Part shown: positions 52,200 to 62,327 of the stretch, piece after piece
Position numbering within the stretch: the stretch's first letter is position 1
Layout: each line of letters opens with the position of its first letter
NCBI GenBank assembly: GCA_003139695.1
Contig: PLJM01000009.1
Coordinates: 16,267 to 80,266, forward strand
From: Candidatus Dormiibacterota bacterium
GTDB lineage: Bacteria > Chloroflexota > Dormibacteria > Dormibacterales > Dormibacteraceae
Direction of reading: 5' to 3'
DNA: 64,000 nt
Notes under the pieces: model-generated
Databases searched by the model: none
What the model was told of the DNA's origin: nothing
The model's input: only the letters and a program-made list of their open reading frames with translations
Position numbers and translations under genes: made by a program

Positions 52200-52203
52200 T
52201 GCT

Positions 52204-52854
52204 TTACTGAACGTCCCCATCGGCCCTTCGGGCCACTTCCCCGGCCAGCGGGGAAGATCGCCTTGATTGACTCCGGCGGGCTTCGCCCGCCACCTCCCCG
52301 GCGAGCGGGGAGGATCGCCTTGATTGATTCCGGCGGGTTTCGCCCGCCACTTCCCCGGCGAGCGGGGATGATCGCCTTGTTCGATCTGACGCCAGTTCCA
52401 CCGCGTCCAGGATTTTTGAGTAGCCCGTGCAGCGGCACAGGTTGCCCGCGAGGGCTTCGCGGATCTCATCCCTAGATGGCGCGCCGTTGGATTCGAGCAG
52501 CGACTTCGCCGCCAGCAAGATGCCCGGCGAGCAGTAGCCGCACTGCGCGGCGCCGAGCTCGACGAACGCTTGCTGCAATGGGTGCAGATCCGATCCGTTC
52601 GCCATGCCTTCAATCGTCGTGATCGCCCTGCCCTCGATCTGAACCGGCAGCACCAGGCAGCTCAGCTCCGGCTTGCCGTCGACCAGCACCGTGCACGTGC
52701 CGCACTCGCCCAGCTCGCATCCGTGCTTGGTGCCCGTAAGCTGCATGTCCTCGCGGAGTACCTCGAGCAGCGTCTTGTGGACGGGGATCAGGAGCTCGGC
52801 GCGCTCGCCGTTGACATTGAGTACCACGACCTGGCGGTCGACGTCGCGCGCCAT
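52204..52854 (-). CDS. hcrC: 2Fe-2S subunit (HcrC-like) with a repeat-encoded C-terminal tail
   Basis: A 216-residue subunit. The N-terminal plant-type ferredoxin domain has GCELGECGTCTVLVDG with the distal Cys in LSCLVLP, and the second cluster has AAQCGYCSPGILLAA and AGNLCRCTGYSKI. The normal protein would end at about residue 160 (ILDAVELAS); the last ~55 residues are three translations of the dispersed repeat (SSPLAGEVAGE-type units). ATG at 52854 precedes the first strand. First of the order C-A-B. Electron transfer to the FAD and Moco subunits. Confidence 0.9.
   Translation of the reverse strand: MARDVDRQVVVLNVNGERAELLIPVHKTLLEVLREDMQLTGTKHGCELGECGTCTVLVDGKPELSCLVLPVQIEGRAITTIEGMANGSDLHPLQQAFVELGAAQCGYCSPGILLAAKSLLESNGAPSRDEIREALAGNLCRCTGYSKILDAVELASDRTRRSSPLAGEVAGETRRNQSRRSSPLAGEVAGEARRSQSRRSSPLAGEVARRADGDVQ
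52213..52373 (+). repeat. Three tandem copies of the dispersed repeat inside the hcrC frame
   Basis: Copies at 52213-52258, 52271-52315 and 52329-52373, spaced by 58 bases, with small stem changes (CTTCCCCG-GCCAG and CCTCCCCG-GCGAG variants). The spacing is not a multiple of 3 with 52213-52271 (58 bases), yet stops are avoided in the hcrC frame. Confidence 0.88.
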
Positions 52855-57999: not shown

Positions 58000-58566
58000 T
58001 CAGAGGACTTCGAGGTTGGTGTGGACGGGCACCGGGTTGGCCAGGATGTCGCGAACCGGCGACGTGTCCTGCACGTACTGGCAGAGCTCTTCCAGCTGCT
58101 CTCGAGTAGCATTCGGTGACTTCACTCGGCTGCGGACCCTGATCTCGGTAAAGCCCGGGCGGCCCTTGCCGAGGCCCAGGAAGGCGTGCAGGTCGATGTC
58201 ACCCTCCACTTCGTACGACAGTTCGGCGATCTCGTAGCCTTTGGCCGCGGCATTCGCGACATAGCCGACCGCGTAGCAGAACCCGAGCGCCGCCAAGCAG
58301 AGCTCGACCGCATTCGGTCCTAGATTGTTGCCGAGCAGGACAGGCGGCTCGTCGCCCTGCAGCTTGAACTGGCCTTCGCGGCGCGACCCGTCCGCCTTGC
58401 CGGCGTGGGTGAAGGGTCCGATTTCGGCCACCGAATGGGTGCCTTCCTGCCACAGGGTCGTGGCCTTGAAAGTCATTTTCGCGACCGAGGCGTTCTCCTG
58501 GATCGCTCCGATCGTCGCCACCAGCTGGTCCACGTTGATCCCGTTACGTATCGCTACCGTCGCCAT
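58000..58566 (-). CDS. OsmC family protein, ECF-regulon member
   Basis: A 188-residue OsmC-fold protein. Core: LLGNNLGPNAVELCLAALGF followed by CYAVGYVANAAAKGYEI, in which the buried Cys of the helix is present, then SYEVEGDIDLHAFLGLG and LEELCQYVQDTSPVRDIL with the C-terminal Cys. Peroxide or persulfide chemistry is the usual role. ATG at 58566 chosen. A promoter of the GCAAT-N18-CGTCTC type lies 64 bases upstream, shared with the sigma-factor operon and the Cys-rich operon. Confidence 0.87.
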   Translation of the reverse strand: MATVAIRNGINVDQLVATIGAIQENASVAKMTFKATTLWQEGTHSVAEIGPFTHAGKADGSRREGQFKLQGDEPPVLLGNNLGPNAVELCLAALGFCYAVGYVANAAAKGYEIAELSYEVEGDIDLHAFLGLGKGRPGFTEIRVRSRVKSPNATREQLEELCQYVQDTSPVRDILANPVPVHTNLEVL

Positions 58567-58629
58567 CTTCCAGACCTCCACTTGTTAACGGCTCAATGAA
58601 GCCTCTTGTTGTGAGCCTCTTGTAAGTAA

Positions 58630-58706: not shown

Positions 58707-59540
58707 CTATCCCAGCGCCGGTTTTCTGGCCCGGACGATTACGGCGACGGCCAGGTGCCGCTGCCGGCTCGGTGAAAGGGTTTGCCGCATGACTTCGATC
58801 AGGTTTGGTGTGAACAGGGGATAGTCCGAGATCTCATCGATTCCGTACCCGGTGTGACCAAAGAACTCCACCGCGACGAAACCTGCTTTGGAGAGTTTTC
58901 TGGCGAAGACACGCTCCGCCACAGCGCCCGATATTCAACCGGCCCAGGCGGCATCGCTGGTCTTCACCTCCAGCGGCAGCTCTGACTCGACGAGCAGGTC
59001 GGCCATCGTGAGCCGGCCGCCCGGTCGGAGAACTCGATAGAGCTCGGCCAGCACGCGAGACTTGCGCGGGGAGAGGTTGATGACACCGTTCGAGATAACG
59101 GCGTCCACCGAGTCAGCCGGAAGAGGTATCGCCTCCATCTCGCCATGCAGGAATTCACAACTATCGCCTACACCGGCGGCGGCGGCGTTGGCCCTGGCTC
59201 GCGCGAGCATCTCCTCAATCACGTCGATCCCAATCACGCGGCCGCCGGGACTCACAAAGTTCGCCGCGAGGATTGAGTCGATGCCACCTCCGGAACCCAC
59301 ATCGAGCACGGTCTCTCCCGGCCGCAGTTCCGCGCGGCGGACCGGGTTGCCAACGCCCAGCGCCCAGGTCACGGCGCCCTCGGGCAGGAGCCGTCGTTCA
59401 TCCTCACTGTAGAGGCGCGCGACCACCGCTTCGCCGGCTCCCGTGCCGATCGCCTGGTAGGCGTCGGCAACCGCGGCCTTGATGTGCTGTTGGTGAAGGA
59501 GATCCGTCTCGCCGGCGATGTGCCCGAGGCCGCGGATCAC
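58707..59540 (-). CDS. ArsM-related SAM methyltransferase, predicted selenoprotein (Sec202)
   Basis: A Rossmann-fold methyltransferase of 277 residues if the in-frame TGA at 58937-58935 is read as selenocysteine. Motif I VLDVGSGGGIDS is at 78-89; motif post-I, RVIGIDVIEEM; then DAVISNGVINLSP (148-158) and VLRPGGRLTMADLL, all as in arsenite methyltransferases. Homologues continue WAG-C-x-x-G-A; here the Cys codon is TGA, and the frame goes on with ISGAVAERVFARKLSKAGF and 55 more residues to a TAG. A hairpin follows the TGA. GTG start overlaps the anti-sigma stop by 4 bases. ArsM substrate ligand Cys is at this position. Sec is inferred. Confidence 0.8.
58911..58937 (-). promoter_or_regulatory. 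Putative SECIS hairpin and Sec codon, methyltransferase 1
   Basis: TGA (58937-58935), then 7 bases, then stem GCGCT/AGCGT (one G-U) with 7-base loop GTGGCGG beginning with G, 16 bases after the TGA start. This spacing and a G at the loop start match the bacterial SECIS consensus. Confidence 0.55.
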
Positions 59541-59770
59541 CTTTCCAGCTCCTTGACAAATCGCGCCATCCGCTCCCTGACTTCGGCCGGAAGTTCATCG
59601 ACCGACCGCTGATCCTCGAGAACACTCTGCAAGACTCTGGCGAACTCCAGCTCTCCACAACATTGCCTGCAGATGCCTAGATGGTCATCGACCAACTGCT
59701 GCTGCTTGGGTGCCAGGTCATCATCGAGGTACTGCCAGAACTGTTTGACCGCTTCAGTGCAGGTGATCAA
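59537..59770 (-). CDS. Zinc-type anti-sigma factor (zf-HC2)
   Basis: A 77-residue protein with the ZAS pattern Cys4, then His30-x3-Cys34-x2-Cys37 in VDDHLGICRQCCGEL. Such proteins (RsrA/ChrR-like) hold an ECF sigma factor inactive until oxidation or metal displacement of zinc. It overlaps the sigma gene by 4 bases and the methyltransferase-1 gene by 4 bases, so the three are one operon. The N-terminal helix precedes the sigma-binding region normally seen in ZAS proteins. Confidence 0.88.
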   Translation of the reverse strand: MITCTEAVKQFWQYLDDDLAPKQQQLVDDHLGICRQCCGELEFARVLQSVLEDQRSVDELPAEVRERMARFVKELER

Positions 59771-60363
59771 GGCACAACACTCTCCTTCATGTGTGATTTC
59801 GTCAACAGCCCCTCCCGATCGGCATAGTTCCAGAGGTCCCGCTCGAAGAGCTTCCGCGCCCGGTGCAGCCGGGCGAGGATAGTTCCCAGAGGGGCCCCCA
59901 GATTGCGGGCGATCTCCTTGGTGGAATACCCCTCGACGTAATGCAGTACAAGCGGCGCCCGGTAGATCTCAGGCATTGCAAGCAGGATCGCCAGGACATC
60001 ATCGCGGCCGAACTGTGCGATGAAATCGAGGTGCAGCGAATCGGAGTAAGGGAACGGGTCCTCTTCCTCCACCTTTCGGTAGAGCGAATACTCGTCCACG
60101 TCATCAAACGCGAGCTCGTCGATCGACCGCTTCGATCGCCGGAGGCCGTCCCGGTAGACGTTCAGCATAATCGCGCTCATCCAGGCCGGCCCAGCTTCGA
60201 CATGCTGGAGTTGGCCGAACCGCTGATAAGCGCGCATGAGAGTTTCCTGAACGAGGTCCTCCGCGCCGCGGTTCGCGAGTCGGCGGGCGAGGCGGTAGAT
60301 CCGCGGCAGGCTGGCCATGGCGACCTCGGAGAAGCCCGCCTGCGCTGTCTTTCCACCCGCCAT
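59767..60363 (-). CDS. ECF sigma factor controlling the thiol/metal-stress regulon
   Basis: A 198-residue group 4 sigma factor. Region 2 contains YRLARRLANRGAEDLVQETL followed by MRAYQRFGQL, the classic -10 recognition helix; region 4 has MPEIYRAPLVLHYVEGYSTK with EIARNLGAPLGTILARLHRA, the -35-binding HTH (about 135-185). ATG at 60363 is preferred to the TTG at 60372. Upstream is its own predicted promoter (autoregulation). With the zinc anti-sigma it resembles SigR/RsrA redox systems. Confidence 0.92.
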   Translation of the reverse strand: MAGGKTAQAGFSEVAMASLPRIYRLARRLANRGAEDLVQETLMRAYQRFGQLQHVEAGPAWMSAIMLNVYRDGLRRSKRSIDELAFDDVDEYSLYRKVEEEDPFPYSDSLHLDFIAQFGRDDVLAILLAMPEIYRAPLVLHYVEGYSTKEIARNLGAPLGTILARLHRARKLFERDLWNYADREGLLTKSHMKESVVP

Positions 60364-60404
60364 GATGGTCAAAGCCTAGACTCGCGCAAAGTCATCACTC
60401 TTAA

Positions 60405-60495: not shown

Positions 60496-60660
60496 ATGAA
60501 TTGTCCCAAGTGTGGTGGCGAGACTGAGGGTTGGAAGTGTGCCATCTGCGGTGCCGAAGCCGACGAGCATGATCCACAGCACACCCACTCCGGTTCGGAT
60601 CGTTACTGCACGTTGAAGTGCAAGGACTGTGGCAAGGCCGACGTCCATTGCACCTGCTGA
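60496..60660 (+). CDS. Small zinc-ribbon-like Cys-rich protein
   Basis: A 54-residue protein with ten cysteines in CxxC pairs: MNCPKCGGETEGWKCAICGA, then EADEHDPQHTHSG, RYCTLKCKDCGKADVHCTC. The two CxxC pairs at each end suggest two zinc ribbons or a metal/arsenic/mercury chelator. It has a strong ribosome site (AGGAGGTG, 5 bases from the ATG). First gene of the divergent ECF-controlled operon. It is too short for most gene finders. Function unknown; the TGA stop here follows the family's usual terminal CTC, so I treat it as a stop. Confidence 0.8.
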   Translation: MNCPKCGGETEGWKCAICGAEADEHDPQHTHSGSDRYCTLKCKDCGKADVHCTC

Positions 60661-60688: not shown

Positions 60689-61543
60689 ATGATGCCGGCC
60701 GAGCTGACCGCGGAAGAGCAGACGGCGATCCTGGCCGAGCGATACTCGCAACGGGCCGAGGCCTATGACAAGTTCTGGAGCCCGGTGATCCGTCCCGCCG
60801 GCGAACGTCTGGTCAGTCAGCTACCTCTCGGATCTGCGAGCAGCATCATCGACGTCGGCACCGGCGCGGGCGCGCTTTTCCCCGCAATTGCGCGAGCGGC
60901 TCCGAGCGCAACGATCCTGGGTGTCGATCGTTCGGAAGGCATGCTTCGCCTGGCGAGAAAAAAGTACCCAGGTTGGCTGGCGCTCATGGACGTGCAAAAC
61001 TTGGCGCTATCCGCCTATCGATTCGATGCGGCGGTTGTCGCCTTCATCTTGTTTCATCTACCAACGCCCGAAAGATGTCTCAGTGAGGTCAATCGCGTGC
61101 TGAAGCCTGCAGGCGTGGTTGGCACGATAACGTGGGCGGCCGAGCGAACTCCGACGGCCGGCGCCGTGTGGGACGAGGAGCTGGGAGCAGTCGGCGCCCA
61201 AGTTATCGAGCTCCCGGCCACCGATAACCGCGCATGCTGCGACACCGAGCAAAAGGTGACGGCGCTGTTGGAGCAAACGGGCTTTGTCGTGATCCGAGTG
61301 TGGTCAGAGTCCATCGAATATCGATGGCGGCGCGAAGATTACTTCGATTACCAGACGCGCAGTACCTCGCGACTGCGTCTCCTGTCGTTGGACGAGGGTG
61401 TGCGTGAGGCGTGCCTCGGCCGGATTCGCAAACGATTATCCGGCGCGGATGAGAACGAATACGTGTACACGGGCGACGTGGTTATGGCGATGGCTCGGAA
61501 ATCTGATGCTGGCATGCAGACACCGGGAGAGACCGATGGCTGA
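60689..61543 (+). CDS. SAM-dependent methyltransferase (class I)
   Basis: A 284-residue methyltransferase. Motif I is SSIIDVGTGAGALFPAIAR (about 50-68), motif post-I ATILGVDRSEGMLRLAR, motif IV AAVVAFILFHLPTPERCL, and NRVLKPAGVVGTITWAAERT the family's strand 5. There is no in-frame TGA and the end is normal. It overlaps the next methyltransferase (Sec) by 8 bases. UbiE/Methyltransf_11 group; substrate unknown. The C-terminal region has a Cys pair (NRACCDT). Confidence 0.88.
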   Translation: MMPAELTAEEQTAILAERYSQRAEAYDKFWSPVIRPAGERLVSQLPLGSASSIIDVGTGAGALFPAIARAAPSATILGVDRSEGMLRLARKKYPGWLALMDVQNLALSAYRFDAAVVAFILFHLPTPERCLSEVNRVLKPAGVVGTITWAAERTPTAGAVWDEELGAVGAQVIELPATDNRACCDTEQKVTALLEQTGFVVIRVWSESIEYRWRREDYFDYQTRSTSRLRLLSLDEGVREACLGRIRKRLSGADENEYVYTGDVVMAMARKSDAGMQTPGETDG

Positions 61544-62327
61544 CATTCTCAACGTGGTGGACATTGACGAACTTCGTCACCAAGTCCGTCAAAAGTACCG
61601 CGATGTGGCCGCCGATCCGAGCGGCACTCAGCATGTCCATCACTTCCACACCGGCCGAACGCACGCGGTGCGGCTCGGGTACCCAGCGCATCCCTTGAGC
61701 GAACTTCCGGACGAAGCATGCGATGCATTTGCGGGCATGGGCAATCCCTTCTTTTGGGGCGGCCCCAAACCCGGCGAGAAGGTTGTTGATCTTGGATCTG
61801 GAGGCGGCATGGATTCTCTCCTGGCAGCGCTCTGGGTGGGCAGCGAGGGGCGTGTTATCGGAGTTGACATGACGCCCGAGATGCTCGATCGCAGCCGTGC
61901 GATCGCCGAGAAGATGGGTTTGAAGAATGTCGAGTTCCGCGAAGGCCTGATCGAAGATCTCCCTGTGGACGACGGCTGGGCGGATGTCGTCATCTCCAAT
62001 GGGGTGATCAACCTCTGCCCTGACAAGATTGGCGTCTACAGGCAGATCTTCCGCGTGCTGAAGCCGGGCGGCAGGATGACTGTGGCTGACATTTGCTTGG
62101 AGCGTCCAGTTCCCGAGGAAGCCCTCCATGACATTGATCTCTGGACTGGTTGAATCGCAGGTGCCCTGCCGTGTGCAGGGTGGGAGACGGTGATCAGCGC
62201 CGCCGGGCTGATGGATGTCGAGCTGGCGAATCCGATCGACGCCTTTGCCGGTGCCAGCGGAGAGGCCAGCGCGAGGGAGTTCGGAACATTGGGCTATTCG
62301 ATTCGAGCGCGTAAGCCGGTTGAATAA
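61536..62327 (+). CDS. ArsM-related SAM methyltransferase, predicted selenoprotein (Sec206)
   Basis: A 263-residue enzyme if TGA at 62151-62153 is read through. KVVDLGSGGGMDSLLAALW (83-101) is motif I, RVIGVDMTPEMLDRSRAIAE motif post-I, VVISNGVINLCPDK (151-164) and VLKPGGRMTVADICLERPVP follow, all ArsM-like. LWTG is then followed by TGA and IAGALPCAGWETVISAAGLM to a TAA at 62325-62327. In homologues the residue after G is Cys (G-C-x-AGA). The recoded end abuts the DUF2182 gene (GTG at 62329), closing an otherwise 178-base gap. Overlaps the previous gene by 8 bases. Confidence 0.82.
62151..62182 (+). promoter_or_regulatory. Putative SECIS hairpin and Sec codon, methyltransferase 2
   Basis: TGA (62151-62153), then stem CCCTGC (62164-62169) and GCAGGG (62175-62180) closing the loop CGTGT, with two more G-U pairs outside. 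The loop starts about 19 bases after the TGA, inside the range for bacterial SECIS. Confidence 0.6.

Follow-up and report, generated by a model that had tools for sequence, protein, structure and literature searches.

Locus and conservation of the in-frame stop

The sequence analysed here is a 64,000-nucleotide stretch of a Candidatus Dormiibacterota bacterium genome (GCA_003139695.1, contig PLJM01000009.1, positions 16,267 to 80,266; hereafter the window), in which the gene of interest is that of a predicted selenoprotein methyltransferase, MT2. The MT2 frame, on the forward strand at 61536..62327, starts at ATG 61536, ends at TAA 62325-62327 and encodes 263 residues with a single in-frame TGA as codon 206 (62151..62153). 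Comparative sequence evidence makes it very likely that codon 206 of this ArsM-like methyltransferase specifies selenocysteine (Sec; U206), given the conservation of the stop and of the frame beyond it, the exchange with Cys at this site, the Sec machinery of the genome, the covariation of a hairpin after the stop and, above all, the match between TAG-containing relatives and a tRNA-Sec with anticodon CUA. With TGA translated as U, the surrounding peptide reads DIDLWTG-U-IAGALPCAGW, and alignment to PDB chains places U206 in the column of Cys224 of CmArsM. The first-pass annotation had located LWTG-TGA-IAGALP in this frame, on the strand opposite to a first ArsM-like methyltransferase, and its coordinates and frame were correct. 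The first enzyme, MT1 (58707..59540, reverse strand), carries a TGA at codon 202 (58935-58937); MT1 and MT2 share 45% identity over 175 residues and their TGAs do fall in one alignment column, as had been stated.

Past its TGA the MT2 frame stays open for 57 codons, an event with P of about 0.17 from base composition, and the open frame was dropped as evidence on its own. Readthrough had also been credited with bringing the gene end to within one base of a DUF2182 gene in place of a 178-base gap. The TAA does lie one base before GTG 62329 in the frame of a DUF2182 (PF09948) gene, of which this GTG is a plausible but unproven true start, and the gap after the TGA measures 175 bases, not 178; the argument carries little weight because no DUF2182-like gene was present at any of the 80 MT2 loci described below. 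In an AlphaFold2 model, MT2 adopts the class I S-adenosylmethionine methyltransferase fold, the final two strands of which (residues 226-230 and 252-259) are both encoded past the TGA. Readthrough would add these two strands, which a 205-residue product would lack.

MT2 loci were collected by scanning genome contigs with an alignment of close homologues and retaining the best 80 of at least 530 relatives, 52-96% identical to MT2. The column of U206 held a stop in 80/80 loci, 79 with TGA and one with TAG (L092, Blastococcus saxobsidens), and in 80/80 loci the match ran on past this stop to residue 256 or further; the joint occurrence of a stop and a continuing protein in every locus is far beyond chance. 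For 13 close relatives, per-site differences at the first, second and third codon positions were 0.14, 0.06 and 0.44 on the 3' side of the TGA and 0.12, 0.07 and 0.49 over the 150 codons on its 5' side, and this near-equal pattern points to the same kind of coding selection downstream. The earlier view that sequencing error or decay is unlikely is thus supported by the TGA in 79/80 loci and the conserved frame past the stop. Orthologues ending at the TGA had been named as a finding that would speak against Sec, and 118 of the 120 best-matching database proteins do stop at the residue preceding it; since the DNA frame continues in 80/80 loci, these database orthologues look like gene-caller truncations.

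Among full-length homologues (profile search, best 120 of 8000 scored), site 206 was Cys in 117, Trp in two and Leu in one. Together with the TGT found in the DNA of one MT2-clade copy (L106), this bears out the Cys/Sec exchange suggested as a check on the prediction. Three proteins in which Trp or Leu occupies the site (P0124, P0125 and P0228) are nested among Sec copies, which could reflect a recent loss of Sec; P0125 is named Blastococcus deserti and the B. saxobsidens copy, by contrast, has TAG.

Selenocysteine machinery and TAG-containing copies

The genome containing the window (3.3 Mb, 93.9% complete) encodes SelB (344 bits), SelA adjoining SelB, SelD and a tRNA-Sec with anticodon UCA, along with a formate-dehydrogenase-alpha-like frame (626 bits, cut-off 666) that has one in-frame TGA in SCNRT-U-HAPSVAGL. 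The search of 201 genomes of the same phylum gave 13 MT2-clade copies including that of the window, 12 with TGA and one with TGT. SelB scored above cut-off in 11 of the 12 genomes with a TGA copy but also in 158 of all 201, so that its presence is weak evidence within this phylum. The exception (G129, 82% complete) has a TGA copy, yet neither SelB nor tRNA-Sec was found in it, and neither was found in the genome with the TGT copy (G185, 80% complete). This TGT copy (L106) and its sister L107 (G056, TGA) are a candidate case of recent Sec-to-Cys change. Genomes were checked for 50 of the 80 MT2 loci, and 46 of these 50 had SelB above cut-off, the remaining four being metagenome-assembled genomes.

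According to the available text of PMC5330540, B. saxobsidens DD2 is among the genomes with a tRNA-Sec of anticodon CUA, in which UAG encodes Sec in formate dehydrogenase, UGSC proteins and AhpC. Because of this report, the family of the lone TAG locus (Geodermatophilaceae by label) was searched, and an MT2-clade copy was found in 7/96 genomes. Six copies were full length; all six had TAG at the site, and all six genomes had a tRNA-Sec with the loop CUCUAAA and anticodon CUA. The seventh copy (G260) lies at the edge of a contig and its frame is broken in the assembly; read by eye, it has a TGA before IAGGLP, and its genome has a tRNA-Sec(UCA). As tRNA-Sec occurs in 94/96 Geodermatophilaceae genomes, it is the match of codon and anticodon rather than tRNA presence that is informative. 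The match of TAG with tRNA-Sec(CUA) is the strongest support for Sec, being predicted neither by a plain stop nor by a pseudogene nor by a UGA-to-Trp code. The TAG copies therefore serve as a natural control for the predicted selenoprotein, the codon fitting the tRNA-Sec anticodon in each genome checked. They share the TAG and tRNA-Sec(CUA) combination with the UAG-coded selenoproteins of Blastococcus and its kin, and MT2, as a methyltransferase, belongs to none of the families that the available text of PMC5330540 names. In-frame TAGs in ArsM-like matches of two other genomes (G044 and G076) were rejected as recoded copies: in L204 the aligned region is free of stops, and in L205 the TAG stands at the Trp203 column instead of the Sec column. 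One genome record (G265) has two tRNA-Sec genes on separate contigs (L145 and L178), with anticodons UCA and CUA, which may represent contamination or a real pair.

Hairpin downstream of the stop

A predicted bacterial selenocysteine insertion sequence (bSECIS) hairpin was located at 62163..62181 (forward strand), with a 7-bp stem (GCCCTGC/GCAGGGT) and a CGTGT loop starting 16 nt past the MT2 TGA. Its covariation was assessed in 81 sequences (79 distinct) using 500 shuffles and slid-partner controls. The stem positions were paired in 93.3% of cells, with 30 double-change cells, and 0/500 shuffles reached either of these values or the covariation score; the slid-partner controls gave at most 46.5% pairing. 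Two of the five measures did not rise above the shuffles, namely the count of pairs showing a double change (413/500) and that of further pair types (470/500). A strict motif (loop CGTG[TC], stem of at least 4, 14-30 nt away) was present in 70 of 82 sequences (the 81 MT2 sequences and the window MT1), as compared with 7.5% (1238/16400) of synonymous shuffles. The CGTG-type loop was shifted two bases downstream in 14 sequences, and some Chloroflexota copies (L105, L108, L109 and L093) retained the stem with TGGA[AG] as the loop. From the covariation (three of five measures) and the loop motif, the hairpin is likely to be a SECIS element. A comparison of the hairpins of L106 (TGT) and L107 (TGA) was dropped, the strict loop motif occurring in neither.

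The hairpin loop encodes Cys213 of MT2, a residue that is Cys in 61/81 Sec copies. At this position the best 120 full-length homologues have Cys in 24 and most commonly Val (70), and selection on the RNA, not on the protein, may therefore maintain the Cys. A corresponding hairpin was predicted for MT1 at 58902..58920 (reverse strand; stem GGCGGAG/CTTCGCC, loop CGTGT), 21 nt past its TGA. The MT1 relatives found beside MT2 in L030 and L042 also contain TGA; in L030 the loop and its spacing from the TGA are those of the window MT1, and the L042 copy fails the strict motif.

Phylogeny and relation to arsenite methyltransferases

A quick tree was computed from 143 rows (140 different), in which the MT2 clade comprised 91 Sec rows, 29 Cys rows (28 of the 117 Cys matches taken at even steps, plus L106) and 3 Trp/Leu rows. 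This clade forms one side of a branch with a value of 100 in the Shimodaira-Hasegawa-like approximate likelihood ratio test (SH-aLRT), and its Sec/Cys pattern needs two changes. MT1, represented by three rows with long branches, grouped with Cys-type ArsM, its exact place being unsure because of these branches. With MT2 in a clade of its own and MT1 among Cys-type ArsM, Sec probably had more than one origin at this site. The first-pass argument from two paralogues with a TGA at the same site thus has to be recast, as the two genes are not recent duplicates, and it holds in the form of Sec at one site in separate ArsM-like types. A third ArsM-like Sec type, not included in the tree, was seen in the second copy of L105 (2848-3528) and in L206 (209-925), where the TGA lies in DDWFR-U-IGGALPE and the two other arsenite cysteines are replaced by Val and Gly.

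The nearest solved structures to the MT2 model are those of ArsM, for which the available text of PMC5552862 gives cysteines at CmArsM positions 72, 174 and 224 as the defining feature. All three were present in 17/17 fetched ArsM homologues. In the tree set, equivalents of Cys72 and Cys174 were absent from 91/91 Sec rows, position 224 being the predicted Sec. Compared with ArsM/AS3MT (NF008823; CmArsM 4fr0 and CrArsM 5evj), MT2 has Val/Met/Thr for Cys72 and Gly for Cys174, and a Cys161 is found in 88/91 Sec rows where ArsM has Ser. Against NF008823 (arsenite methyltransferase), for which the curated cut-off is 263 bits, MT2 falls short with 229.6 bits, and a separate Cys-type ArsM copy of the same genome, with all three arsenite cysteines, scored 274.5 bits. 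By the published three-cysteine criterion, MT2 as predicted from its sequence is not an arsenite methyltransferase.

Selenoproteins of this kind are already known, in that a 2026 review (PMC13188914), in its available text, lists arsenite methyltransferase as a selenoprotein family (WP_011987699.1, motif UxxG), citing Fomenko 2007. U206-IAG fits the UxxG of this ArsM-like protein, a likeness drawn from the motif description only. MT2 also matches the N-terminal domain of the ArsM/AhpD (NF041537), ArsM/DUF2284 (NF041536) and methyltransferase/UXPK-star (NF047649) selenoproteins, to which four MT2-clade proteins gave 194-239 bits and a canonical ArsM of the same genome 151-164 bits. Unlike these families, MT2 is a stand-alone protein of 263 residues with one Sec and no second Sec-bearing domain, and it misses their cut-offs of 460-575. 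As far as library searches show, what is new is the stand-alone cross-phylum clade lacking the arsenite cysteines, together with its TAG-coded members. No recognisable description of the stand-alone clade or of a TAG-coded methyltransferase was found in the open-licence literature; Haft and Tolstoy 2025 and Haft and Gwadz 2023 may describe the group.

Gene neighbourhood

MT2 is preceded in the window by MT3 (60689..61543, forward strand), a class I methyltransferase gene without in-frame stop whose last 8 bases are shared with the beginning of MT2, and MT3-like genes (63-67% identical) lie directly 5' of MT2 in L019, L020, L022, L024 and L026. On the reverse strand are found an extracytoplasmic function (ECF)-type sigma factor (59767..60372) and a zinc-finger anti-sigma factor (59537..59770) that is RsrA-like at 45 bits, below the curated cut-off of 62.5. 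Besides the window, three actinobacterial loci (L029, L030 and L042) have the combination of sigma factor, anti-sigma factor and MT1 beside MT2, with MT1 truncated in L029 where the contig ends. The ECF sigma and RsrA-like anti-sigma genes with MT1 and MT2 are possibly a regulated two-selenoprotein cassette, and their pairing in the window and these three loci would be compatible with MT2 belonging to a thiol- or metal-stress response. An OsmC-like protein without in-frame stop (58000..58581, reverse strand) recurs beside MT2 in L030, where the copy is 60% identical.

No DUF2182- or DUF1326-like neighbour was detected in the 80 MT2 loci at E 1e-6 (72/80 with at least 900 bases downstream, some loci being short), and both families were rejected as operon partners of MT2. 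One recurrent neighbour is an ArsR-HTH/rhodanese regulator: among 43 co-directional upstream genes, HTH_5 (ArsR-type) domains occurred in nine and rhodanese domains in nine. SelD accounted for 4/39 downstream genes of MT2-clade copies, all above SelD cut-offs. Other recurrent neighbours were DsrE, metallo-beta-lactamase (MBL)-fold, major facilitator superfamily (MFS) and cysteine-synthase-like genes, in neighbourhoods that vary overall.

Elsewhere in the window, a small Cys-rich protein (54 aa, 60496-60660) without Pfam match lies upstream of MT3, and repeated peptide-like units (RRSSPLAGEVAG...) are present at about 52200-52450, at the junction of two long open reading frames that on visual inspection resemble subunits of molybdopterin-type dehydrogenases. 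These units suggest that a short DNA repeat has inserted here and is read as protein.

Interpretation and possible substrates

We hold with high confidence that the MT2 TGA is decoded as Sec by the cell's own machinery and a hairpin cue, in an enzyme that would methylate a soft substrate. SelA, SelB, SelD and tRNA-Sec(UCA) of the host would insert Sec at this codon, presumably in a SelB-dependent manner, in response to the hairpin. One observation weighs against the hairpin, in that its folding energy is unexceptional relative to synonymous shuffles (mean z -0.19, 82 sequences); hairpin stability gave no signal and was dropped as evidence, covariation and loop position being retained. That the TGA is a genuine stop, in a recent pseudogene or in a working 205-residue protein followed by a remnant, agrees with gene callers ending there and with the best-matching database proteins finishing one residue earlier, but is extremely improbable in view of the stop and frame kept in all 80 loci at 52-96% identity, the coding-type substitutions on its 3' side, the two fold strands that lie past it and the full-length Cys homologues. 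An error of sequencing or assembly is hardly more credible, and the same holds for a codon read as Trp or another residue through a changed code or suppressor. Trp does occupy the site in two of the best 120 homologues, but the usual sense residue there is Cys, the TGA recurs in 79/80 loci, the genome encodes the complete Sec machinery and contains a TGA within its formate-dehydrogenase-like frame, and the TAG copies pair with tRNA-Sec(CUA) as Sec predicts.

With Sec accepted, the substrate is the main point on which explanations differ. A soft substrate, either a metal(loid) or a chalcogen species, may be held by the U206 selenolate in the position of the arsenite ligand Cys224 of CmArsM, perhaps with the help of Cys161; this substrate would be methylated by S-adenosylmethionine next to the selenolate. 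Arsenite is bound by three cysteines, methylarsenite by two and dimethylarsenite by one, according to the available text of PMC3877260. Because the Cys72 and Cys174 ligands are replaced in MT2, a one- or two-ligand substrate fits better than inorganic arsenite, and our guess, unproven and drawn from residue comparisons, is a substrate of the dimethylarsenite kind, an organometal or a chalcogen species. The enzyme might instead be a true arsenite methyltransferase in which the selenolate and Cys161 replace the three-cysteine site. This is suggested by the ArsM structures being nearest, by arsenite methyltransferase being the top or near-top NCBIfam match and by the family's listing in PMC13188914 as a selenoprotein, but it appears doubtful given the missing Cys72 and Cys174 equivalents in every Sec row, the three-cysteine copy in the same genome, the NF008823 score below cut-off and the lack of an arsenic transport or reductase family among the neighbour families listed. 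That the enzyme acts on a small thiol, a persulfide, a selenide or a telluride and not on a metal(loid) would be in keeping with the ArsR-type and rhodanese genes upstream, the recurring DsrE, MBL-fold and cysteine-synthase-like neighbours and the MT2 copies beside selD; as the neighbours vary widely, such a substrate can be proposed with considerable reserve.

Returning to Sec insertion in a soft-substrate methyltransferase, we tentatively raise the possibility, which we consider rather unlikely as a whole, that MT2, MT1 and the type of L206 and the second L105 copy make up a cross-phylum class of one-selenolate methyltransferases, in which one selenolate replaces three thiolates and the targets would be soft species with a single binding place, for example dimethylarsenite, an organomercurial or a Se/Te species, with ECF sigma control in some hosts and UAG encoding in the Blastococcus family. 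The loss of two arsenite ligands and the conversion of the third to Sec pose a testable question as to the substrate of a single-selenolate methyltransferase. In public records, many members of the group are about 58 residues short, cut just before the likely catalytic residue. If true, the Sec reading would yield the complete enzyme of a widespread group, shortened in databases and with relatives in several phyla.
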